Shown piece after piece: positions 15,010 through 26,305 of a DNA stretch of 64,000 nucleotides. The notes under the pieces were generated by a model. The model was not told where the DNA came from, did no database searches, and saw only the letters and a program-made list of their open reading frames with translations. The stretch spans positions 5,370,001 through 5,434,000 of the forward strand of contig NZ_CP045740.1 of NCBI RefSeq assembly GCF_009650765.1, given 5' to 3'. Source of the stretch: Streptomyces sp. SUK 48. Lineage in GTDB: Bacteria; Actinomycetota; Actinomycetes; Streptomycetales; Streptomycetaceae. Made by a program: the position numbers and the translations under genes. Each line of letters starts with the position of its first letter. The first letter of the stretch is position 1.

Positions 15010-16927
15010 TCAGCCCCGGCGGACGGTGATCGTCGTCCAGGCGCCCACGTGCACCCGGTCGCCGTCGCGCAGCGGAACCGGCACGAACGGCTGAATCGGC
15101 TCCTCGGACATGTTGACCGTGGTGCCGTTGGTCGAGTTCTGGTCGACCACCGCCCAGCTGCCGTCCGGCTGCTGCACCAGCATCGCGTGCTGGTGCGAGA
15201 CGCCCGGGTCCTCCGGCGGCACGGCCAGGTCGATGTCCGGGGTGTCGCCGGTGGAGTGCCGGCGGCGGCCGATCGTCACCTGGTCGCCGGTGAGGGTGCG
15301 CTGCTGCTCGGGGGAGTACGCGGGCAGGTTCAGGCCCGTGGCCTCGGGGCCCGAGCGCTGCATCATCGCCATGAAGTACGCGCGGTCCGGGCCGACGGTG
15401 GCGGTCCAGGTGGACTGCCCCGGCGCGTCCGGGAAGCCCGGGCCCGCGGGGGCCTTCTGGAAGCCGGGGCCCGAGGGGGCCTGGGTACCACCGGGCTGGG
15501 GATAGCCGTAGCCGCCCTGGCCGTGTCCGCCGGGACCCTGGCCCTGGCCGGGGCCCGAGGGGTCGGTGGACGACGGCGGGGAGATCACCCAGTCGTCGTC
15601 ACCGCCGCCGAAGGAGGGACCGCCGGAGCCGGGGCCGCCGAAGGGGCCGCCGGCCGGGGGGCGGCCGGTCTCCTGCGGGAACGCGGGGGGCGCGGGCGGC
15701 CCACCGGCCGCCGATGGGAACGCCTGCGGGGCGCCACCGGGACCCTGACCGGGACCACCGGGACCCTGACCGGGACCACCGGGACCACCGGGTCCGGCAG
15801 GGCCACCCGGGCCGCCGGGGCCCGTGGGCCGGGAGGGGTCGCCGAAGGGGCCCTGGCCGGGACGGCTCCCGAAGAGCGAGGAGCTGCCGGTCTGGCCACC
15901 GGGGCCCGCGCCGGGGCCCCGGTCGCCGCCGAAGCTCGGGGCGGGGACTGCTGGTTGCCGGGCTGGGGGTAGCCGTAGCCACCGTTCCGACCCTGACCGC
16001 CGGGACCCTGGCCGGGACCGGAGGGGCCACCGGCACCCGGACCGCCGGTACCGGGACCACCGGGACCCGATGGGCCACCGGCACCCGGACCCTGACCCGG
16101 GGCGTTGCCGAAGGGCGAGGGGCGGCCGGCCGGAGCGCGGTCGCCGCCGAAGCCCGGCGGTGGCGGAGGGGACTGGGGGTTGCCGGGCTGCGGGTAGCCG
16201 TACCCACCGCCCTGGCCGCCGGGACCCTGGCCGGGACCGGCGGGGGCGCCGCCGCCCTGGCCACCGGGACCCGCGCCGGGGCCCCGGTCGCCGCCGAAGC
16301 CCGGCGGCGGGGGCGGGGACTGCTGGTTGCCGGGCTGCGGGAAGCCGTAGCCGCCCTGGCCGCCGGGGCCCTGGCCCTGGCCGGGGCCGGACGGAGCACC
16401 GGGCGCGCCCTGGCCCGGGACCCGGCCGAAGGCGGGCGGGGCCGGGGGACCGGGGGAGGCCGGCGGGCTCGGCGGGGTGCGGTCGAACGGGGTCGGCCCC
16501 GAGGGCTCGCTGCCGAAGGACGGGATCGGCTCGGCCGGACGGTTCACCCGCGAGGGCCGCGAGCCCTGGTACTCGTACCCGTCACCGCCGCCGAACGGCG
16601 TGTTCGGCGACGGGAAGTGCGGGCCGCCCGTGGGGCGCGGGGCCGCCGGGGTGTACGAGGTCGCGGTGTTGGTGAGGAAGTTCCACCGGCACTCCTCGCA
16701 GAAGGGCGCGCCGCCCTCGCGGGGCGTACGGCACTGCGGGCACAGCTCGGCCTCGCCGGCGGCGGCCGGCGGACGGGCGCCCTGGTGGCCGGCCCCGGGG
16801 GCGGGAAGCCGTAACCGCCGGTCGGCGGGGGCGGCGGAGGCGGAGGTACGGCACCGGCCATGCGGTGACCGCACACCTCGCACCAGTCGTCGGAACCCGA
16901 CTGGTGTCCGTTCGGGCAGGTCGGCAT
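15010..16927 (-). pseudogene. zinc-ribbon/FHA protein, interrupted by two 1-base frameshifts
   Basis: The restored protein has an N-terminal zinc ribbon (CPNGH...CEVCG), a second one (CPQC...CEEC), a long Gly/Pro/Gln linker with four copies of a GYGYPQPGN module, and a C-terminal FHA domain with GRR, SHQH and STNGTTVN, which binds phosphothreonine. It is the last gene of the PknG cluster, so it is a natural reader of the kinase. As given, the frame is lost at 16793-16801 and 15938-15941; one extra G/C in each run restores a single frame. Sequence error is the likelier cause. Confidence 0.75.
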
Positions 16928-16986
16928 GTCGGTGCTTCCCCTTCTTCCGTTAAGGGTCCGGCTGGATCGCTAGGGTCGCTTCCAGA

Positions 16987-18324
16987 TCACTTCTTGACAC
17001 GAACAGTCTTGGTGGACCGGGTCTCCAGAGTCATCTCGTCGGCCTCCGCGACCCTCGTCTTCAACCGCACAGTACCTGTCGCGGCGTCGACCACGTCCAC
17101 CACCTTCGAAAGCAGTTTCGCAGTATCCGCGTTCCCCGAGGCGCTCGCCAGCTGAACGGCCCGTCCCAGTTTGGCGGTTGCTCCATCGAAATCGCCCACT
17201 TTGCGCAGATCGAGCCCCTGTCTGATGACATGTGCGAGTTCGGCCTGACCCGTGTAGTGGGCGACCTGGGGGCTGATCGCGGTGGAGGCCGCCATGTCGT
17301 CGGTCCATACGGCCCGTACGAGGCCCTGCGCGCCGAGGTTCTGCGCCGGGCCCTCCGCCTGCGGGATGACCAACGAGACCCGCGCGGCCAGCATTTCGCG
17401 GCCGAGGCCGGCCGGTGGCACCTCCACGCACAGGTGGTAGTCGCGGGACTCGTCGCCCCAGGACCCGGTCGGATAGTCCCCGGCGCGCGGCCCGGCCTCG
17501 GTGCGGCGGGCGGTCAAGTCCTCGACGGCGGGAGCGACTTGTTTGACATAACGGATGGCGGTGCCGACCGGCGTCCACACCCGCAGGGCGACGTCGGCGA
17601 CCTCCTTGTCCATCGCCGTCTCCATCATCCGGGTGAAGTCGGCGGCGAGGCCCGCCGGATCGGCGACGATGTCGGCCGTGCCGAGGAGCGCCGAGGCGAT
17701 CCCTGTGACTTCTTTCACTTCCCAGTCGGTGCCCACGCCCCGCGCGTCACAGGTGAACCGGCCGGCGCAGGCGTCGAGGGCGGCGCGGAGGTCCTCGGGC
17801 GTCTCGTGCTCGTTGCGCCCGTCGGTGAGCAGGATGCCGTGGCGCAGGGTGACGTCCGCCGAGGACAGCAGCCGGTCGGCGAGGCGCAGCCAGGTGCCGA
17901 TGGCCGTACCGCCGCCCGCGGCGAGGCGGCGCAGCGCCTGCTTGGCCCGGTGCCGGGTGGTCGGGCTCGCGACGGCGAGACCGCCGTCGCCGGGGTAGAC
18001 CTCGGTGGCCACGTGGGTGCCGGCGATCACCGCGAAGCGGGTGCCGTCGCGCAGGGTGTCGATCGCGGCGGCCGTGGCGTCCCGGGCGTTGCGCATCTTG
18101 GCCGGCGGGTAGTCCATGGAGCCCGAGCAGTCGACCATGATCGCCACGGCGGCGGAGGGACGGCCGTCCGCGGTGCCGGGGCCCAGGCCCGCGCCCAGCG
18201 TGCCGCCGCCCGTCGCCGTCACCGTGACGATGGCGTTGACCTCGCGGCCGCCCTCGGGCAGGTACTCGTTCTGGTACACGTCCACCGAGAACCGTGGCAC
18301 GCTCGGTTTCGCGAAATTGGCCAT
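16987..18324 (-). CDS. von Willebrand factor A domain protein
   Basis: A 445-residue cytoplasmic protein. The VWA domain (about 60-240) keeps the metal-ion-dependent adhesion site DCSGS near residue 69 and a TDGRNEHE segment. The C-terminal part is beta-rich and then helical with a TPR-like repeat (DFDGATAKLGRAVQLASASGN). It lies 30 bp after the PP2C gene and 59 bp before the FHA gene in the PknG cluster. In such clusters VWA proteins are thought to be scaffolds or substrates of the kinase; here this is inference. Confidence 0.85.
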   Translation of the reverse strand: MANFAKPSVPRFSVDVYQNEYLPEGGREVNAIVTVTATGGGTLGAGLGPGTADGRPSAAVAIMVDCSGSMDYPPAKMRNARDATAAAIDTLRDGTRFAVIAGTHVATEVYPGDGGLAVASPTTRHRAKQALRRLAAGGGTAIGTWLRLADRLLSSADVTLRHGILLTDGRNEHETPEDLRAALDACAGRFTCDARGVGTDWEVKEVTGIASALLGTADIVADPAGLAADFTRMMETAMDKEVADVALRVWTPVGTAIRYVKQVAPAVEDLTARRTEAGPRAGDYPTGSWGDESRDYHLCVEVPPAGLGREMLAARVSLVIPQAEGPAQNLGAQGLVRAVWTDDMAASTAISPQVAHYTGQAELAHVIRQGLDLRKVGDFDGATAKLGRAVQLASASGNADTAKLLSKVVDVVDAATGTVRLKTRVAEADEMTLETRSTKTVRVKK

Positions 18325-18354
18325 ACGAACTCAAATCCCCCTCCACCGGCCCGC

Positions 18355-19789
18355 TCACGCGCGGCGGTGCTGTGTACGGGCCGGTCCCCTCCGGCCCGTG
18401 GCCCCCGTGGCCTCAGGCCGATCCTGCCCCCGCGGTGGTGCCGGGAACGGCAGGACGGCCACTGTTACGTTGTCGTGGCCCCCGCCGTCCAGGGCGTGGC
18501 CGACCAGGACGCGGGCGCTGTGCAGCGGCCGTACGGCGGCGTCCGCCGGGATCGTCTCGGCCATCTCCCGCGCCGTCTCGGCGTAGTTCCACAGTCCGTC
18601 GGTGCACACCACCACCACACCGGGCCGGTCCGGCTTGAACGACGCGGTGTGCGGCTCGAGTTCGTAGGCGTCCGCGCCGAGCCAGCCGGTGATCGCGTGG
18701 GCGCGCTCGTCGGCGTACGCCTCGGCCTCGCTCATCAGTCCGGCGGCGACCATCTGCGCGGCCCAGGAGTCGTCCTCGGTCAGCCGGGCGGGCGGCGCGT
18801 CGCGGTCGTCCGGCACCCAGTAGGCGCGGCTGTCGCCGACCCAGCCGACCACCAGGAGCCCGGCGGCGACCACGGCGGAGACGATGGTGCAGGCCGGGGC
18901 GTTCTGGTGCGGGTCGTGCTCGCGGGCCGCGTCCGGCTCCCCGGCCAGCGCGTTGACGGCCCCGGCGGCGGCGACGATCGCCTCGTGCATGGCCGCCTGC
19001 GGGTGCGTGCCGCGCGGCAGGGCGGCGAGCAGCACGTCACCGGCCGCGCGCGCGGCGGCGGCCGACGCCTCGTCGGGGCGGGTCGCCGAGGAGACGCCGT
19101 CGCAGACGACGGCGAGCGTGGCGGGGCCGCCGTCGGGCAGCGTGGTGTGGCCGAGGGCGAAGGAGTCCTCGTTGCGGTGATGGCGCAGTCCGCGGTCGCT
19201 GACGGCGGCCACCGGGCCCGACTCCCGCTCCATGTGGTCGCGTTCGCGGGGCTGGGCGTGCCCGCAGTTCTCGCAGTAGCCGTCGCTGTCCACGCGCCCG
19301 GCGCGGCAGGCGACACAGGTCGTGGCGGGCCGCGCGGGCTCCTCGGGCCGCTGTTCCGGTCCGGGGGTCTCGTTCGCGGCGCGGGGTTCGGGGGCCTGCA
19401 AGGGGTACTCCTCGGGTTCCGCCGGCCGGTCGAGGCGGACGCCGGACCCGGGCGCTCCCGCGGGCGCACCCGGTGCGCCGGGGTGCAGCGGGTGGCCGCC
19501 CGAGTCGGTGCCGGGCAGATCGGTCGGCAGATGCGTCGTGGGGGAGGTGGAGCCGGAGCCGGGGGCTCGGCGGCGGGCCACTCCACGCCGTCCCTGGGCG
19601 CCGGGACACCGGAGTCCCGGGGCCGGGCGCGCGGGGACCGGTCATGGGCAGCGTGGGGTGGTCCTGGGGCGGGGCGGGCAGCACCGAGAGGTCGTGACCG
19701 CACGCACCACAGAAGAGGTCGTCGGGTTCGACGGGCTCCGCACAGCTCGGGCACGTGGCCGGTGCGGCCTGCTGGGGCATCTGCGACAT
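18355..19789 (-). pseudogene. PP2C-family Ser/Thr phosphatase with zinc ribbon, interrupted by two 1-base frameshifts
   Basis: The N-terminus (MSQMPQQAAPATCPSC..., zinc ribbon with CPSC and CGACG) lies in one frame and the PP2C domain in another. The phosphatase part has a second zinc ribbon (CVAC...CENCG), SDRGLRHHRNEDSF, VCDGVSS, VGDSRAYWV and GGHDNVTVAVL, the usual PP2C metal-binding motifs. Adding one G/C in the runs at 19619-19622 and 19561-19565 gives a single reading frame through RDSGVPAPRDGVEWPAAEPP. It starts three bases after pknG and would reverse its phosphorylation. Confidence 0.8.
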
Positions 19790-19792
19790 CAA

Positions 19793-22279
19793 CTACACCC
19801 ACGTCCGGGGGCGGTAACGGTTGGCCCGTTCCACCAGTTCGTTCCTCTCCTGGCCGCCGGGGGCCAGCCGGGCCAGCGTGCGGTAGGCGCGTTCCAGGCC
19901 GAAGCGCAGGCCGCGCTCGTCCAGTCCGCTGCCCAGCAGCACCCGCCCGCCGAAAGCCGTCCGGACGGTGTTCCGGTCCCCGGAGAGTATCCAGTCCAGC
20001 GCACAGCCGAGCACTTCCGCCGACAGCACCTCGCGCCGCGCCGGATCGAGCCCGTACGCCTTAAGCGCCTCGACCTGCCCGGCGGCGGCGGTCAGATCCT
20101 CCAGGAACGGTACGTCACCCGCGACCGCGGTGCGCCCCCTGAGCCGCGCCCGGACGGCGGCGACCCGGGCGGCCGTGTAGTGGATGGACGACTCCGGCAC
20201 CGACTCCAGCGTGCGCACCGCGCCCTGCCGGTCCCCGGCGGCGAGCCGCACCCGGGCGAGCCCGAACGCCGCGCTCACATGACTGGGATCGGTCGTCCAC
20301 ACCAGGTGGTAGTAGTCGGCCGCGTTGTCCAGCTGGCCCAGCACCTCGGCGCAGGCGCCGAGCGCCAGCTTGGGCGCGGCCTCGCCGGGGAAGGCGTCGT
20401 AGATCGCGTCGAAGGCGAGCGCGGCGCCCTCGAAGTCGCCGGTGACCAGCGCGGCCAGGCCCCGGTACCAGACCACCCGCCAGTCCTCGGGCCGCTCCTC
20501 GTCCAGCGCGGCGAGCACGGACAGGGCGCTGTAGTGGTCCCCGGTCTCCAGCCGCGCCCGCACCTGCCGCAGCCGTGTCTCCACGCTCTGCGCGGGCACC
20601 GCCGCCAGCGCCCCGAGCAGCTCCCCGGGCGCGGAGGTCACGAGGCCCGCGAGGAACCCGGCGTTGGGGTCGCCCGCGTCCACCAGGGGCACGGGCAGCG
20701 CGAGGGCGGCGGCGGGGAAGTCGAGCGGCCGGACCAGGGCGGACGCCGAGGGGGCCGGCGCGGGGGCGGCGGTCCGCCGGCCGCGCGCCGGGAGCTCCCG
20801 CGCCCCCAGCCGCGACACGTGCCCGGCCAGCAGGGGGAACAACTCCGTGTCGGTGACCCGCACTTCGGGCCCGAACAGGGTCGACAGGGCCGGCCGCGCC
20901 TGCCCGCTCTGGAGGGCCACGACCTCCCGCAGCACCCCCGTCAGCTGCTCCGCCATCTCCTGCGCGGAGCCGAAGCGGCGGGCCGGGTCGGGGTCGGTGG
21001 CGCGCACCAGGAGGCGGTAGAAGGACTCGTAGCGGCGGAAGACCTCTATGGTCTCCGGGTCCGGCAGCGCGTCGGCGTAGACGTGGGTGTAGCCCTGGAA
21101 GTCGAAGGTCAGCACGGCGAGGGTGCGGCCCACGGTGTACAGGTCGCTCGCCACCGAGGGGCCGACCTCGGCGACCTCGGGGGCCTGGTAGCCGACCGTG
21201 CCGTAGATCGCGGACTCGTCGTCGTCCATGCGGCGCACCGCGCCCATGTCGATCAGCTTGAGCTGGTCCTCGGTCTGGATGGCGTTGTCGACCTTGAAGT
21301 CGCAGTACAGCAGATTGCGGCTGTGCAGATGGCCGAGCGCCTCCAGCGCCTCGATGCCGTAGGCGCACGCCTGCTCCACCGGCAGCGGATCGCGTCTGCC
21401 CTCCGGGGTGCGGCGGGCGTTGGCGATCTCCTTGAGGGACTTGCCGCCGACGTACTCCATGACGATGTAGCCGTCGAGGGAGCCGGTGCGCTGGTCCAGG
21501 TGCTCCACGAAGTTGTAGATCCGCACGATGTTGGCGTGCTCGATCTCCGCGAGGAAGCGCCGCTCGGAGATCGCGGCGGCCATCGCGTCCTGGTCGCCGG
21601 TGTCCAGCAGGCCCTTGAGCACCACCCAGCGGTCGGAGACGGCCCGGTCCACGGCGAGGTAGACCCAGCCCAGACCGCCGTGCGCGAGGCAGCCCGCGAC
21701 CTCGTACTGGCCGTGCACGATGTCCCCGGCCTTCAGCTTGGGCACGAAGGAGTACGGGTGGCCGCACTTGGTGCAGAACCCCTCGGTGCGCCCCGGCCGT
21801 TCGCCCCGGGCCCGGCCGACCGGCGCCCCGCAGTCCGAGCGGGAGCAGAACCGTTTGCGTTCGGGCACCTCGGGGTTGTCGAGGACCATGCTGTGCGGGT
21901 CGGGCCGCGGCACCTGCGGCACGTCCACCAGGCCCGCGCCGAGCCGGCCGCGTGCCGAGGGTGCCGAGGCGGAGCCGGAGCTGCGCACCGACACCGAGCG
22001 GGCGGTGGCGGCGCCGCCCGACAGGGACCGGGAGAGCCGCCCGGACACCGAGCGCCGCGACCTGGACGACTGCGAGGAGGTGCGCGCGCTGCGGGCGCTG
22101 CCGGACCCCCGGCTCTCGGCGGCGCCCCGGGTCAGCCCGGTGGGCGGCGAGCCGACCAGTCCGGTCGCCGACACCACGGGCGCCAGGCCACAGGTGTCGC
22201 AGTACAGCTCGCCGCCGCCGACGTCCTCGTACGACCCCTCGCAGCCCGGCCGCTGACAGGCCCGCCCGGCCCCGCTCAT
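19793..22279 (-). CDS. pknG: serine/threonine protein kinase PknG
   Basis: An 828-residue PknG orthologue. It has an N-terminal zinc ribbon and disordered Ser/Arg region, then the rubredoxin-like domain (CSRSDCG...CTKCGHPYSF, about 195-225), the kinase domain beginning KAGDIVHGQYEV with AHGGLGWVYLA, ATP-binding lysine in VVLKGL, EYVGG hinge, YCDFKVDN catalytic loop and LIDMGAV, and a C-terminal TPR region. The catalytic loop lacks the HRD arginine, as in mycobacterial PknG. The start overlaps the preceding stop (TGATG). In mycobacteria PknG acts with GlnH and GlnX to adjust glutamate metabolism; both partners are encoded upstream here. Confidence 0.92.
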   Translation of the reverse strand: MSGAGRACQRPGCEGSYEDVGGGELYCDTCGLAPVVSATGLVGSPPTGLTRGAAESRGSGSARSARTSSQSSRSRRSVSGRLSRSLSGGAATARSVSVRSSGSASAPSARGRLGAGLVDVPQVPRPDPHSMVLDNPEVPERKRFCSRSDCGAPVGRARGERPGRTEGFCTKCGHPYSFVPKLKAGDIVHGQYEVAGCLAHGGLGWVYLAVDRAVSDRWVVLKGLLDTGDQDAMAAAISERRFLAEIEHANIVRIYNFVEHLDQRTGSLDGYIVMEYVGGKSLKEIANARRTPEGRRDPLPVEQACAYGIEALEALGHLHSRNLLYCDFKVDNAIQTEDQLKLIDMGAVRRMDDDESAIYGTVGYQAPEVAEVGPSVASDLYTVGRTLAVLTFDFQGYTHVYADALPDPETIEVFRRYESFYRLLVRATDPDPARRFGSAQEMAEQLTGVLREVVALQSGQARPALSTLFGPEVRVTDTELFPLLAGHVSRLGARELPARGRRTAAPAPAPSASALVRPLDFPAAALALPVPLVDAGDPNAGFLAGLVTSAPGELLGALAAVPAQSVETRLRQVRARLETGDHYSALSVLAALDEERPEDWRVVWYRGLAALVTGDFEGAALAFDAIYDAFPGEAAPKLALGACAEVLGQLDNAADYYHLVWTTDPSHVSAAFGLARVRLAAGDRQGAVRTLESVPESSIHYTAARVAAVRARLRGRTAVAGDVPFLEDLTAAAGQVEALKAYGLDPARREVLSAEVLGCALDWILSGDRNTVRTAFGGRVLLGSGLDERGLRFGLERAYRTLARLAPGGQERNELVERANRYRPRTWV

Positions 22280-23550
22280 CACTGGTCCCCCTTACGGTCC
22301 TCGGGCGCGCCGTCCAGCAGTTCGGCCACCGCCCGCTGGTAGCGCAGTACCGCGCCCTCGGCCACCCGCAGATCGCAGGGCGCGCTCCACAGCATCCGCC
22401 GCGCGGCGTCGTACCGCTCCACCAGGAACGGGTCCTCGGCCAGGCCGTGCCGGGCCACCTTCGCCTTGTAGGCGTCGAGCCGGCCGCGCAGTTCGGCGCG
22501 GACCGCGAGCGGCGCGGTGACCGCGGTCAACTGCTCGCGGGCCCGCAGCAGTTCGTCCTCGGCCTTGTGTTCGAGGGACTCCAGCAGCGGGGACAGGCGG
22601 TGCCACTGGGCGCCCCGCCGGTACTCGGCCGCCGCCGCCAGCTGCTCCTGGAGCACGGTCGGCGGGCCATTGACCACCGGCACCTCGGTGGCGGCGATCT
22701 TCGCCAGCACCTCGCCGCGCGCGGTACGGGCCTCGGCGAGGGTGCGGTCGGCGCGCGAGAGGATGTCCCGGAGGCGGATCAGCCGGGCCTCGGCGTCCTG
22801 GCGCACCGTCAGCACCGCGTCGATCTCCCGGCGCACGTCCTCCAGGGCGCGCGCCTCGCGGTCGTACACCGTGGTGTCCGGGCGGCCTCCGCCGGGCGCC
22901 GAACTGCCCTGGGCGGGCACCCAGAAGGCGAGCGGGTCGCGGATCACGTCCTCGCGCAGCCGGGTCAGGGTGCGGGTGATCCGCTCCAGGTCGTCCCCGG
23001 CCGGGTGCTCGCCGGGGCGCACGCCGACGGAGTGCGCGAGCTGCCGGGTGCGCTGGAGCTCGGCGGCGAGCAGGTCGATCCGGGCCGGCAGCGCCGACCA
23101 GACCGTGTCGGCGGTGACGACCAGGTCCAGGCTGGTCGCGTACAGCTCGTTCATCCGGTCCACCAGCTCGGCCAGCGAGAAGCTCTCGCTGAGCCTGCCG
23201 GTGCCGGGCCCGGCGACCGCCACGGAGGTGCCGCGCAGCAGTTCGGTCAGCTCGGCCAGGTCCTCCCGGCTGGACCAGCGGCGCCGGGCGCGGATCTCAC
23301 GGGCGCCGCGCAGCGCGGCCGTATAGGCGTCGAAGTACGACCACAGCAGGGTGATCCGCGCCTCCGTGGCCTGCCAGCGCTCCTGGGTGACGCCGGACAG
23401 TTCGGCGCCCTCCAGGAGTCTGCGGCCCGCGTGGTCCTGGAGGGCGAGCAGCGAGGTCTCGATGGCCTCGTGCTCCTGGCCGAGCCGCGCCAGCGCACGG
23501 TCCACCTCGTCCCGGTCCATCACCGGCCCGGCGGGGTCCGTGACGCCCAT
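22279..23550 (-). CDS. coiled-coil protein of the PknG cluster
   Basis: A 423-residue, strongly alpha-helical, charged protein without signal peptide or membrane segment. It is mostly heptad-like Leu/Ala/Arg/Glu sequence (for example ARLGQEHEAIETSLLALQDH). It starts MGVTDPAGPVMDRDEVDRAL; a start at the second Met is possible. It is translationally coupled to pknG and follows glnH by 41 bp. I do not know a function; an adaptor between membrane sensor and kinase is a guess from position. Confidence 0.8.
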   Translation of the reverse strand: MGVTDPAGPVMDRDEVDRALARLGQEHEAIETSLLALQDHAGRRLLEGAELSGVTQERWQATEARITLLWSYFDAYTAALRGAREIRARRRWSSREDLAELTELLRGTSVAVAGPGTGRLSESFSLAELVDRMNELYATSLDLVVTADTVWSALPARIDLLAAELQRTRQLAHSVGVRPGEHPAGDDLERITRTLTRLREDVIRDPLAFWVPAQGSSAPGGGRPDTTVYDREARALEDVRREIDAVLTVRQDAEARLIRLRDILSRADRTLAEARTARGEVLAKIAATEVPVVNGPPTVLQEQLAAAAEYRRGAQWHRLSPLLESLEHKAEDELLRAREQLTAVTAPLAVRAELRGRLDAYKAKVARHGLAEDPFLVERYDAARRMLWSAPCDLRVAEGAVLRYQRAVAELLDGAPEDRKGDQ

Positions 23551-23591
23551 CGATCACCTCTCGCTTGCTGTGTGTTCCGGTCGGCCGTGGT

Positions 23592-24620
23592 TCAGCTGGT
23601 GCGCAGATACCGCGGTGCCGGCGGCCTGGACGCCGAGGAGTCCTTGCCCAGTGTGGCCGACAGCCATGTGTCGTACGACGCCTGCCAGCCGCTCGTGCGG
23701 TAGGCGACCAGGACCCGGTTGACCCGGCGCACCAGATCGGAGGCGTCCTTCTTCATCGCCACTCCGTAGTACTCGGTCGTGAACGGCGCGCCCTTGAGTT
23801 CCACGGTCGGGTCCTGCGCGGCCTGGCTCGCGGCGAGGGCGCCGTCGGTGACCACCGCGTCCACCTCGCCGAGCTGGAGCCGCACCAGGCAGTCCAGCTG
23901 GTTGGGCACGGTGGTGGAGAGGTCGGTGGAGGCGGGCAGCGTCCCGGCCTTCTTGTCGGCGGCCAGCTTCGCGTACCCGGTCGAACCGGTGGCCGTGCAC
24001 ACCTCCTTGTGCGCCAGGGTGTCGTCGTACCCGGTGATCGGGGACGACTTGGGGGCGAGGACCTGCTGCCCGGTCTTGAAGTACGGCGCCGAGAAGGCGA
24101 CTTGCCCGAGCCGCTCGCAGGTGATCGTCATCGTGCGCACCACCATGTCCACCCGGCCGTCCTGGATCGCCGCGATGCGCTGGTTGGTCGGTATCGCCTT
24201 GAACTGGACCGCGTCCGGGTCGCCGAGGATGTCCTTGGCGATGCGGTGCACCAGGTCGATGTCGAAGCCCTCCAGCTGGGCGCCCTCGGTGTTGGGGTTG
24301 CGGTAGCCCCAGCGGTAGCTGTTCTGGTCGACGCCGACGATCAGCTTGCGCCGGGCGCCCGCGCGGGCCTTGATGGCGTCGACGGCCGGACCGTCCGCGC
24401 CGGACGGGGCGAGGGTCTGCGCCTGCGCCTCGGAGTCCTGGCAGGACCCGGCGCGCACCTGGCTGCCCTCGGCGAGCTGCTGCCCGGCCCGGTCCGGGGC
24501 GGTGTGGTGGTGGTGCGCGATCTGCGTGCACGGCAGCAGCAGGACGAAGGCCAGCGCCAGGGCGCACAGGACCGCCATCGTGCCGACCCCGCCCCAGCCG
24601 CGCAGCCGGCTCGCGTCCAT
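23592..24620 (-). CDS. glnH: amino-acid-binding protein GlnH-like
   Basis: A periplasmic binding protein type 2 (about 342 residues) with an N-terminal hydrophobic anchor (MAVLCALALAFVLLLPC, possible weak lipobox) and the SBP_bac_3 pattern: KLIVGVDQNSYRWGY, LEGFDIDLVHRIAK, RVDMVVRTMTIT, VAFSAPYFKTGQ and YYGVAMKKD. The mycobacterial homologue senses aspartate/glutamate and works with GlnX, not with a transporter; no permease is present here either. ATG 24620 has AAGGGG upstream; the GTG at 24638 overlaps the glnX stop and is the alternative. Confidence 0.82.
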   Translation of the reverse strand: MDASRLRGWGGVGTMAVLCALALAFVLLLPCTQIAHHHHTAPDRAGQQLAEGSQVRAGSCQDSEAQAQTLAPSGADGPAVDAIKARAGARRKLIVGVDQNSYRWGYRNPNTEGAQLEGFDIDLVHRIAKDILGDPDAVQFKAIPTNQRIAAIQDGRVDMVVRTMTITCERLGQVAFSAPYFKTGQQVLAPKSSPITGYDDTLAHKEVCTATGSTGYAKLAADKKAGTLPASTDLSTTVPNQLDCLVRLQLGEVDAVVTDGALAASQAAQDPTVELKGAPFTTEYYGVAMKKDASDLVRRVNRVLVAYRTSGWQASYDTWLSATLGKDSSASRPPAPRYLRTS

Positions 24621-24634
24621 CGCCCCGCCCCTTC

Positions 24635-26104
24635 TCACCGGTACTCCGAAAGCCTGCGGCCGATCCCGGCGAGCGCGCCCGCCGCGCCGAGCACCGCGAG
24701 GGCGGCGGCGCCCACGGGCAGCCCGGTCATGGCGTCCCGTCCGTTCGCGGCGGCCCGCTGGAACTCGGCCTGCTCATGGCCTATCGCGCGGGCGAGGTCG
24801 CTGTCGACACCGTCGAAGCATTCGCCGGTGGTGCCCTGGGCACCGATCACCTTGTCCAGCGCCTGCTGGTAGTCGCCGTTGTCGTCCTCGGTGCGGGCCG
24901 CGCCGTGCCGCTGCTTCCACAGCGCGGCGCCGGCCTCGGCGGACTTCACGGGCGCGGTGCCGCCGGAGTCGTCGGCGAGCCGCTCCGCCCGGCCGAGGCC
25001 CTTGCCGAGCACGGTCATGTCCTTGTCGAAGTCGTAGGAGTACGTGTCGTACTGCTTGCCGTCGACCGTGACGGTCTCGGCGCCGCGCGCCACCAGGCTC
25101 AGGTTCTCGTTGCCCCGCGCCTTCAGGGAGGCGATGCGGGCGTCGTGCAGGACGGTCAGGGAGCGGATGCCGTGGTCGTAGGAGCCGGTCAGCTCGGAGC
25201 GCGCGACGGTGTGTCCGATGGTGAGCCACAGCAGGGCGACGACGGTGGCGCCGCCGGCCGCGACCAGGCCGTGGTTGAGGACGCGGTGGGTGCGCAGGTA
25301 GTCGCGGCGCTGGGCCCAGCCGAGCCCGGCCAGGGTGAGCACGCCGAGCGCGATGGCCGCCCAGGGGTACGGCGTCGCGTCCCCGTAGTCGGCGTCCAGG
25401 CGCGCGTTCTCCTTGGTGTAGAGGTCCTCCGCGGCCGGGAGCATCTGCGTCTGCATCTTCTCGTTGGCGTAGCGCAGATACGCGCCGCCGACCGGGTAGC
25501 CCTGCCGGTTGTAGGTGCGGGCCCGCTCCACGAGGCCCTTGTACTCGGGCAGCAGCCGGTTCAGCCGGGCGACGGTGGCCTCGGAGGCGCTGCCCGGTTC
25601 GGCGTTGGCGGCGGCCGTGACCAGGCCGGAGGCGGCCGCGCTGATGTCCTTCTCGTACCGGTCGCGGGTGGCCGCGGGTTCCTGGCCGCCCGCCAGGAAG
25701 CCGCTGGAGGCGGCGGTGTTGGCGTCCGCCAGCGAGCGGTAGATGTCGGCGGCGCCGGAGCTGAGCGGCTGGCTGCGGTGCAGCACGTCGTCCGCGGCGG
25801 CCGCGCGCTCGCTGCTCTGCCAGGCGGTGACCGCGCCGAACGCCACGACCAGCAGGGCGAGTACGGCACCGATGATGCGCAGCCGGCCCGGCTCGGTGGT
25901 CGAGGCGGCCCGCAGCCTCTCGGCGCCCTCGGCGAAGGCGGTCCGCCGGGAGTGCGGCCCCCGGGGCGGGTGCGGCGCGTGGGCCGGGTGCGGCGCGTGG
26001 GCCGGCGCCGGAGCGGGCGGGCCGGGCTGGACGGGGATGCCGGGGGCGGCGGGCACGGCGGAGCCCGCGGCCGGTGGTGCTGCGCTCTGCGGCGGGTGTG
26101 TCAC
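24635..26104 (-). CDS. glnX: GlnX-like transmembrane sensor protein
   Basis: A 489-residue membrane protein with a Pro/Ala/His-rich cytoplasmic N-terminus and four membrane segments (IIGAVLALLVVAFGAV; WAAIALGVLTLAGLGW; TVVALLWLTIGHTV; AALAVLGAAGALAGIG). Between TM1-2 and TM3-4 are helical extracytoplasmic regions of about 160 and 180 residues, the layout of mycobacterial GlnX, which passes the GlnH signal across the membrane to PknG. GTG 26104 follows a GGGGGAGGTCGA ribosome site. It is the first gene of the seven-gene cluster, so the promoter should lie in 26105-26305. Confidence 0.8.
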   Translation of the reverse strand: MTHPPQSAAPPAAGSAVPAAPGIPVQPGPPAPAPAHAPHPAHAPHPPRGPHSRRTAFAEGAERLRAASTTEPGRLRIIGAVLALLVVAFGAVTAWQSSERAAAADDVLHRSQPLSSGAADIYRSLADANTAASSGFLAGGQEPAATRDRYEKDISAAASGLVTAAANAEPGSASEATVARLNRLLPEYKGLVERARTYNRQGYPVGGAYLRYANEKMQTQMLPAAEDLYTKENARLDADYGDATPYPWAAIALGVLTLAGLGWAQRRDYLRTHRVLNHGLVAAGGATVVALLWLTIGHTVARSELTGSYDHGIRSLTVLHDARIASLKARGNENLSLVARGAETVTVDGKQYDTYSYDFDKDMTVLGKGLGRAERLADDSGGTAPVKSAEAGAALWKQRHGAARTEDDNGDYQQALDKVIGAQGTTGECFDGVDSDLARAIGHEQAEFQRAAANGRDAMTGLPVGAAALAVLGAAGALAGIGRRLSEYR

Positions 26105-26305
26105 TCGACCTCCCCCATGGTCATCCGTACGCAGCCAAGTATCGCCGTACGGACCGACATTCCGCACCGGGCTTCACCGGATCTTGTGCGCAGCTCAGGG
26201 TGCGCTGCCCCTATACACGCCGGGAGCAGGTGTTCGGTTCCTCGGGCCGGGGCGTGCGCCATGCCCCGGCCCGCCCCGGGGAACCCGCCTTTCCACAAGG
26301 CAAGT

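Follow-up and report, generated by a model that had tools for sequence, protein, structure and literature searches.

An extended PknG gene cluster with phosphatase, VWA and FHA genes in Streptomyces and other actinomycetes

Results

The window analyzed here is a 64,000-nucleotide stretch of the 8.34 Mb chromosome of Streptomyces sp. SUK 48 (contig NZ_CP045740.1, positions 5,370,001 to 5,434,000). From its position 26104 down to 15010 seven genes follow one another on the minus strand in the order glnX, glnH, a gene for a coiled-coil protein, pknG, pp2c, vwa and fha (Table 1). The spacings in this order are -4, 41, -4, 0, 30 and 59 bases, where those for pp2c and fha are counted from each gene's first in-frame zinc ribbon start. 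The start of glnX was read as GTG at 26104, behind a purine-rich stretch, while the longest open reading frame begins at 26167. A sequence-only reading of this DNA had proposed seven tightly spaced leftward genes forming a complete phosphorylation circuit around the kinase PknG; position, strand and spacing agree with it, but the pp2c and fha sequences are each broken up over more than one reading frame. The remaining five genes are uninterrupted, domains were confirmed with Pfam and NCBIfam for every protein except the coiled-coil one, which has no family match, and the seven genes include no permease gene, in agreement with the earlier remark that GlnH lacks an ABC permease. The cluster represents a known pathway in extended, conserved form, and we consider it an extended PknG signalling module with a probability of roughly 0.6.

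Table 1. Features of the pknG cluster, in coordinates of the window
Feature	Position	Strand	Description
glnX	24635..26104	-	membrane sensor; NF058618 GlnX family, 490.5 bits (cut-off 250)
glnH	23592..24638	-	solute-binding protein family 3; PF00497 E 2.6e-27; solved GlnH 6h1u E 1.2e-46
codon of GlnH Gln247	23898..23900	-	aligns to ligand-contacting Trp232 of M. tuberculosis GlnH
coiled-coil protein	22279..23550	-	423 aa; predicted helical rod; without family match
pknG	19793..22282	-	Ser/Thr kinase: rubredoxin, kinase, TPR (PF16919, PF00069, PF16918)
PknG N-terminal zinc ribbon, residues 9-31	22190..22258	-	pattern search
PknG rubredoxin domain	21734..21952	-	PF16919 E 9.6e-32
pp2c	18355..19792	-	zinc ribbons and PP2C phosphatase (PF13248 E 6.7e-7, PF13672 E 1.6e-13); frame-disrupted
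vwa	16987..18324	-	VWA and VWA_3_C domains; PF18571 E 6.4e-22, PF13768 E 1.1e-8
fha	15010..16927	-	zinc ribbons, Gly/Pro-rich linker, FHA domain; three frames
FHA domain	15043..15279	-	PF00498 E 1.4e-15

Two sets of loci were used for comparison. A scan of genome contigs for relatives of the VWA protein gave 572, of which the best 80 were kept as the named Streptomyces loci, so that this set is biased to close Streptomyces; the closest of them, S. griseofuscus DSM 40191 (L003), has a VWA protein 95 per cent identical to that of the window. The second set is anchored on PknG, whose rubredoxin family was matched in 144 of 394 genomes of the class (139 above the cut-off), and consists of 118 loci, a subset which we chose from the matches listed. 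Families are given as codes, f1 being Streptomyces.

All 24 primary f1 loci carry the seven genes in a single order, and three further f1 loci are second copies with pknG and a VWA gene only. PknG counts in the named set use 78 of the 80 loci, as the contigs of L044 and L075 begin inside the cluster, without pknG. Among these 78, all seven genes are present in 68, nine lack fha alone and one lacks glnX, glnH and the coiled-coil gene; the ten incomplete loci are cut short by contig ends, to 9.6 to 13.9 kb where 21 kb is usual. Outside Streptomyces the full set is found in 13 of 29 f17 loci, a family to which Thermomonospora umbrina (L102) belongs; 14 others have some of pp2c, vwa and fha or are cut, one is minimal (glnX-glnH-pknG) and one holds pknG with vwa. 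The f17 sensor genes lie downstream of pknG wherever they were found, still within the cluster. Nine of 16 f18 loci are full and five have some of pp2c, vwa and fha, the remaining two being one with glnX, glnH, the coiled-coil gene and pknG at a contig end and one with a pknG that has no same-strand partners. All eight f26 loci hold glnX, glnH, pknG, pp2c and vwa, five of them with fha and one with the coiled-coil gene; the same five genes occur in one f42 locus, without fha, and in one f11 locus together with fha, and pknG, pp2c, vwa and fha stand at a contig end in f27. The f4 loci (33) comprise 27 minimal ones, four with pknG alone and two full clusters, and both f46 loci are minimal.

The genus g4 of f4 is Mycobacterium (PknG 1400 bits to the solved protein 2PZI). 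It had been stated that in mycobacteria the phosphatase and the FHA protein are encoded elsewhere, which holds for most sampled loci but not for all, since the VWA protein of the extended locus L167 is identical to one from Mycobacterium sp. Y57 and each f4 genome with an extended copy also holds minimal copies. The genome of L167 (G282) has three PknG loci, L166, L167 and L168, two minimal and one extended.

At a threshold of E 1e-60 or better the VWA protein was found in 94 of the 394 genomes, and 93 of these 94 also have rubredoxin-type PknG (Fisher p 1.6e-51, uncorrected for kinship). It occurs in one of the 250 PknG-less genomes and is missing from 51 with PknG; the two Streptomyces without PknG (G277, G309) are without VWA as well, and genome G153 gave weak or partial matches to both. 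The co-conservation across actinomycetes that had been proposed as a check is far beyond chance, and the absence of co-conservation that would have spoken against the earlier reading was not observed. A VWA relative (46 per cent) was also seen in an f46 genome (G249:C260:19877-21148), on a contig other than that of the minimal PknG operon.

In PknG the rubredoxin (PF16919, residues 111-183), kinase (PF00069, 194-395) and TPR (PF16918, 523-827) domains follow one another, and residues 113-826 align at E 3.9e-172 with 2PZI, which we take to be PknG of M. tuberculosis; together with the match of GlnH to 6h1u this bears out the proposed identity of both proteins. The catalytic residues K223, D328, K330, N333 and D345 are present, and the same KDKND set is found in the window, in 24/24 f1 rows and in 77/78 named Streptomyces rows, the other one being unaligned. 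In most extended PknGs an extra N-terminal zinc ribbon, scored by pattern search, precedes the rubredoxin domain: 24/24 sampled and 77/77 alignable named Streptomyces, 24/26 f17, 8/8 f26, 1/1 f42, 1/1 f11 and 2/2 f4 (0/1 in f27, at a contig end). The ribbon is present in 0/27 f4, 0/2 f46, 0/1 f18 and 1/1 f17 minimal operons, in 0/4 f4 and 0/1 f18 lone PknGs, and in 3/3 f1 and 2/2 f17 loci having pknG and vwa without pp2c and fha. The N-terminal tail of PknG, which docks the FHA substrate in the known system, varies even within minimal PknGs; a STQALFRPDF-like stretch occurs in six of 20 readable minimal f4 tails and in none of 144 readable extended ones, among them that of the window. A further 7 minimal f4 tails and 12 extended ones could not be read.

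The same genome encodes a further PknG (G000:C1:1875811-1876008, locus L137), which is divergent and has an N-terminal ribbon. It was considered as a second full cluster and rejected, as just one distant VWA protein matched within 20 kb. Similar pairs of PknG and a distant VWA protein were seen in two other Streptomyces (L135, L136) and in one f17 genome (L101).

GlnX scores above the cut-off of its family model and reaches 189.2 bits with NF041460, the equivalog of PknG-activating GlnX, which is below the cut-off of 780; the family match supports the proposed identity, and the low similarity to GlnX that would have spoken against it was not observed. Hydropathy gives hydrophobic segments at residues 98-116, 300-318 and 485-503 of GlnX (numbering of the 510-aa longest open frame) and one at the N-terminus of GlnH. 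In M. tuberculosis GlnH, Arg147, Thr162 and Trp232 touch the Asp side chain (PMC6069109), and to these we added Ser164, Arg169 and Asp250 from the same source, in M. tuberculosis numbering, as the residue set of an Asp/Glu-type GlnH. By alignment the GlnH of the window keeps R154, T169, R176 and D265, has T171 for Ser164 and Q247 for Trp232, and therefore departs from the full set. The seven-column signature RRTTRQD is common to 24/24 f1 and 77/77 named Streptomyces rows, while the position of Trp232 is Trp in 2/2 f46 and 28/29 f4, Tyr in 26/26 f17 and variable in f18 and f26. Judging from these residues Streptomyces GlnH likely binds some amino acid, but the Asp/Glu sensing which had been assumed appears doubtful because Gln replaces the ligand-contacting Trp in every one of the 101 aligned GlnH sequences from Streptomyces. 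The change from Trp to Gln predicts a ligand different from, or broader than, Asp in Streptomyces.

In PP2C, 13 columns including the acidic metal-binding ones are identical in the window, in 24/24 f1 and in 80/80 named Streptomyces loci. The VWA protein has an intact metal ion-dependent adhesion site (MIDAS; D65, S67, S69, T140 and D168), and both sets of metal residues are nearly invariant across relatives. Two ribbons are found on PP2C in 24/24 f1, 25/26 f17, 8/8 f26 and 4/13 f18 loci, and the cluster FHA proteins bear zinc ribbons as well. The candidate phospho-binding residues of the FHA domain are R108, S131 and N154 (192-aa frame), which stand at the positions usual for this role, with the Arg, Ser and Asn kept in 136/139 rows. 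The possibility that the cluster FHA protein is itself GarA was rejected, since it reaches only 22.6 bits with the OdhI model (cut-off 200), and the earlier view of it as a protein unlike GarA stands.

In the window the catalytic part of pp2c lies in another frame (18355-19581) than its first zinc ribbon (19037-19792), and fha is spread over three frames; these two disrupted genes are low-complexity and GC-rich. Each is one frame in S. griseofuscus L003. In the named Streptomyces loci with a match both pp2c ribbons are in frame with the phosphatase in 76/80 cases, and in 80/80 if either ribbon is accepted; two of the four exceptions begin at a contig end, and the other two (L035 and L059) seem to carry a shift or masking. 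For fha, 70 of 71 named loci with a match have the FHA domain in frame with a ribbon, and the remaining one has a run of N. The disruptions in this strain are either an assembly error or decay of the copies, and with pp2c and fha disrupted the complete circuit that had been claimed is not shown for it. In L035 and L059 the apparent disturbance falls in the same pp2c linker.

Genes for a PIMT-like protein and a globin flank the cluster, each in 70/80 named loci, and in each case nine of the ten others are cut by contig ends. The PIMT-like, globin and sugar-kinase neighbors were matched in none of the sampled loci from other genera, which limits the shared unit to the seven genes. An ABC-F neighbor, of a widespread family, was also matched in 13/33 f4 and 5/16 f18 loci.

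To follow the extended and the minimal form, a first PknG tree was made from 58 loci of our choice and the window, and a careful one from 53 PknGs, with the fast-evolving L135, L136, L137, L101, L193 and L194 dropped. In the careful tree, which is unrooted, every f4 row falls on one side of a branch (100/98), the extended f4 PknGs (L095, L167) sit between the minimal f4 clade (100/100) and all others, and the minimal f46 rows are nested within extended ones (96/92). A single clade of minimal f4 and f46 was rejected by the approximately unbiased test (p 0.0098), for a group fixed after the first tree had been viewed and made up of the minimal and lone pknG rows of f4 plus f46, with the minimal f17 L112 left out. 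At least three changes between the two forms are needed, and the VWA and PknG trees broadly agree by family. In the first tree, rooted on the long-branched second copies, the minimal f4 clade is derived; we give this root no weight, these copies being the only outgroup available. Four lone pknG genes without sensor genes (L092, L094, L096 and L178, f4 genus g31) form their own clade beside the operon copies.

Discussion

Gene content, gene order, co-conservation and the intact catalytic and binding motifs in relatives are observed directly, and the earlier reading was right on the parts and their linkage, less so on the ligand and on completeness in this strain. The relay from GlnH through GlnX to PknG is known from published work on C. 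glutamicum and mycobacteria (PMC6069109, PMC9769921). By analogy GlnH, outside the membrane, would bind a small amino acid or a related compound, and GlnX would relay the state of GlnH through the membrane to PknG, at its TPR domain. PknG in turn would phosphorylate itself and its partners. The adjacent PP2C may undo this phosphorylation and the zinc-ribbon FHA protein may read the phosphothreonine made by PknG; the VWA and coiled-coil proteins could serve as scaffold or adaptor proteins, and assembly of the complex could be aided by the zinc ribbons of PknG, PP2C and FHA. Probably GarA is still one output of the extended module and the cluster FHA protein a second. That these parts act as a working circuit, with erasure and reading by proteins of the cluster itself, is what we infer.

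Several observations weigh against such a module. The reading frames of pp2c and fha are disrupted in this assembly, only 6/14 extended f18 loci have the PknG ribbon, and in the f26, f42 and f11 loci the coiled-coil model gave nothing or a weak match only. Four f17 loci (L184, L185, L188, L189) keep pp2c and fha with no VWA matched between them, therefore VWA is not always needed. A consensus scan found no promoter-like and no terminator-like site, which says little for Streptomyces. FHA domains prefer phosphothreonine, but the PknG tail in Streptomyces is Arg/Ser-rich (S, T and R make up about 60 per cent of its last 75 residues), and a GarA-like docking stretch looked for in extended PknG tails was not found; since the tail has this composition and no stretch of the mycobacterial type, docking as known for GarA is not supported.

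The locus could also be only the known GlnH-GlnX-PknG-GarA metabolic switch, with PP2C, VWA and FHA as accessories that tune GarA phosphorylation and have no output of their own, which we regard as rather unlikely. PknG, GlnX and GlnH do belong to known families, and GarA-like proteins are found in 381/394 genomes of the class (E 1e-25), 44 of them above the curated cut-off. The GarA-like protein of the present genome (L201, G000:C1:6767573; 187.5 bits to the OdhI model, just below its cut-off) has a zinc ribbon and an ETTSTISI stretch resembling ETTSVF of mycobacterial GarA. However, most mycobacteria sampled have the three-gene form without the extra genes, and the cluster encodes its own FHA domain with the binding residues intact. 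The N-terminal ribbon on GarA is seen in Streptomyces and most other sampled families: a survey of 41 loci gave 38 readable GarA frames (3/3 f26 were unreadable), 27 with the ribbon and 11 without it (8/8 f4, 2/2 f46 and 1/1 f37). A specific link of this ribbon to the extended cluster was rejected, because it also occurs in genomes without rubredoxin-type PknG, and GarA is therefore not tied to the extended cluster.

An improbable alternative is that the circuit targets cell envelope growth or division, in which case an EzrA-like coiled-coil rod and the FHA protein would tie nutrient state to the growth machinery. The coiled-coil protein weakly resembles EzrA; its AlphaFold model (mean predicted local distance difference test score 89.5, predicted template modelling score 0.71) has no Foldseek match at E <= 0.001. 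The actinobacterial cell-division locus, where PASTA kinase, PstP phosphatase and FHA genes lie together, is similar in joining a kinase, a PP2C phosphatase and FHA proteins, but its kinase is of the transmembrane PASTA type, unlike the soluble PknG, and to our knowledge it holds no GlnX, GlnH or VWA.

In TerY-P triads a kinase that bears a C-terminal zinc ribbon is combined with a PP2C and a TerY-like VWA, and modules related to them act in phage defence (PMC11090510). The present cluster is comparable in encoding a MIDAS VWA, a PP2C and a Ser/Thr kinase together, with zinc ribbons present, and its kinase domain matches 31 PADLOC models. That it is a stress or anti-phage module of this kind which happens to employ PknG is nevertheless very improbable, because the other six proteins have no PADLOC match and those of the kinase look like general kinase similarity, the kinase ends in the PknG TPRs with its ribbon at the N-terminus, and the position of the locus next to the PIMT-like and globin genes is stable in Streptomyces. 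The cluster also differs from the triads in its sensor pair and FHA protein.

The closest known system remains glnX-glnH-pknG with GarA/OdhI of Mycobacterium and Corynebacterium, described as a conserved operon (PMC6069109, PMC8546545) or gene cluster (PMC9769921). The sensor, relay and kinase families and the PknG TPR domain are common to both, and the rubredoxin domain is as in mycobacteria; the Streptomyces cluster differs in its four extra genes (coiled coil, PP2C, VWA and FHA), in the N-terminal ribbon of PknG and a tail without the STQALFRPDF-like stretch, and in Gln for Trp in GlnH. In the available parts of PMC6069109, PMC8546545, PMC9769921, PMC12321487, PMC4416010, PMC11090510 and PMC4978471 a PP2C, VWA or further FHA gene beside glnX-glnH-pknG is not mentioned. 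A search of one open-access library by title and start of the abstract found no publication on the extended cluster, figures and most subscription literature being outside its scope; the operon-conservation figure of PMC6069109 could thus show neighboring genes. The clustered Ser/Thr kinases SCO4775-4779 of S. coelicolor bear some likeness and were rejected as the same cluster, since they are five independently transcribed kinases (PMC4416010), and PknG, PP2C and FHA go unmentioned in the main text of that paper.

The mycobacterial three-gene version may be a trimmed form of the extended cluster. A tentative scenario, to which we would give somewhat less than even odds, is that the seven-gene module is ancestral in actinomycetes and that the mycobacterial operon was reduced by losing phosphatase, reader, VWA, scaffold and PknG ribbon together, with an independent reduction in at least one other family.

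PknG is a well-known metabolic kinase of mycobacteria and corynebacteria which has been investigated together with two sensor genes and a single FHA substrate. In the extended and widely conserved version a phosphatase, another FHA protein and candidate scaffolds stand beside it as concrete potential partners, and this version suggests functions that the reduced form may have passed to other genes.

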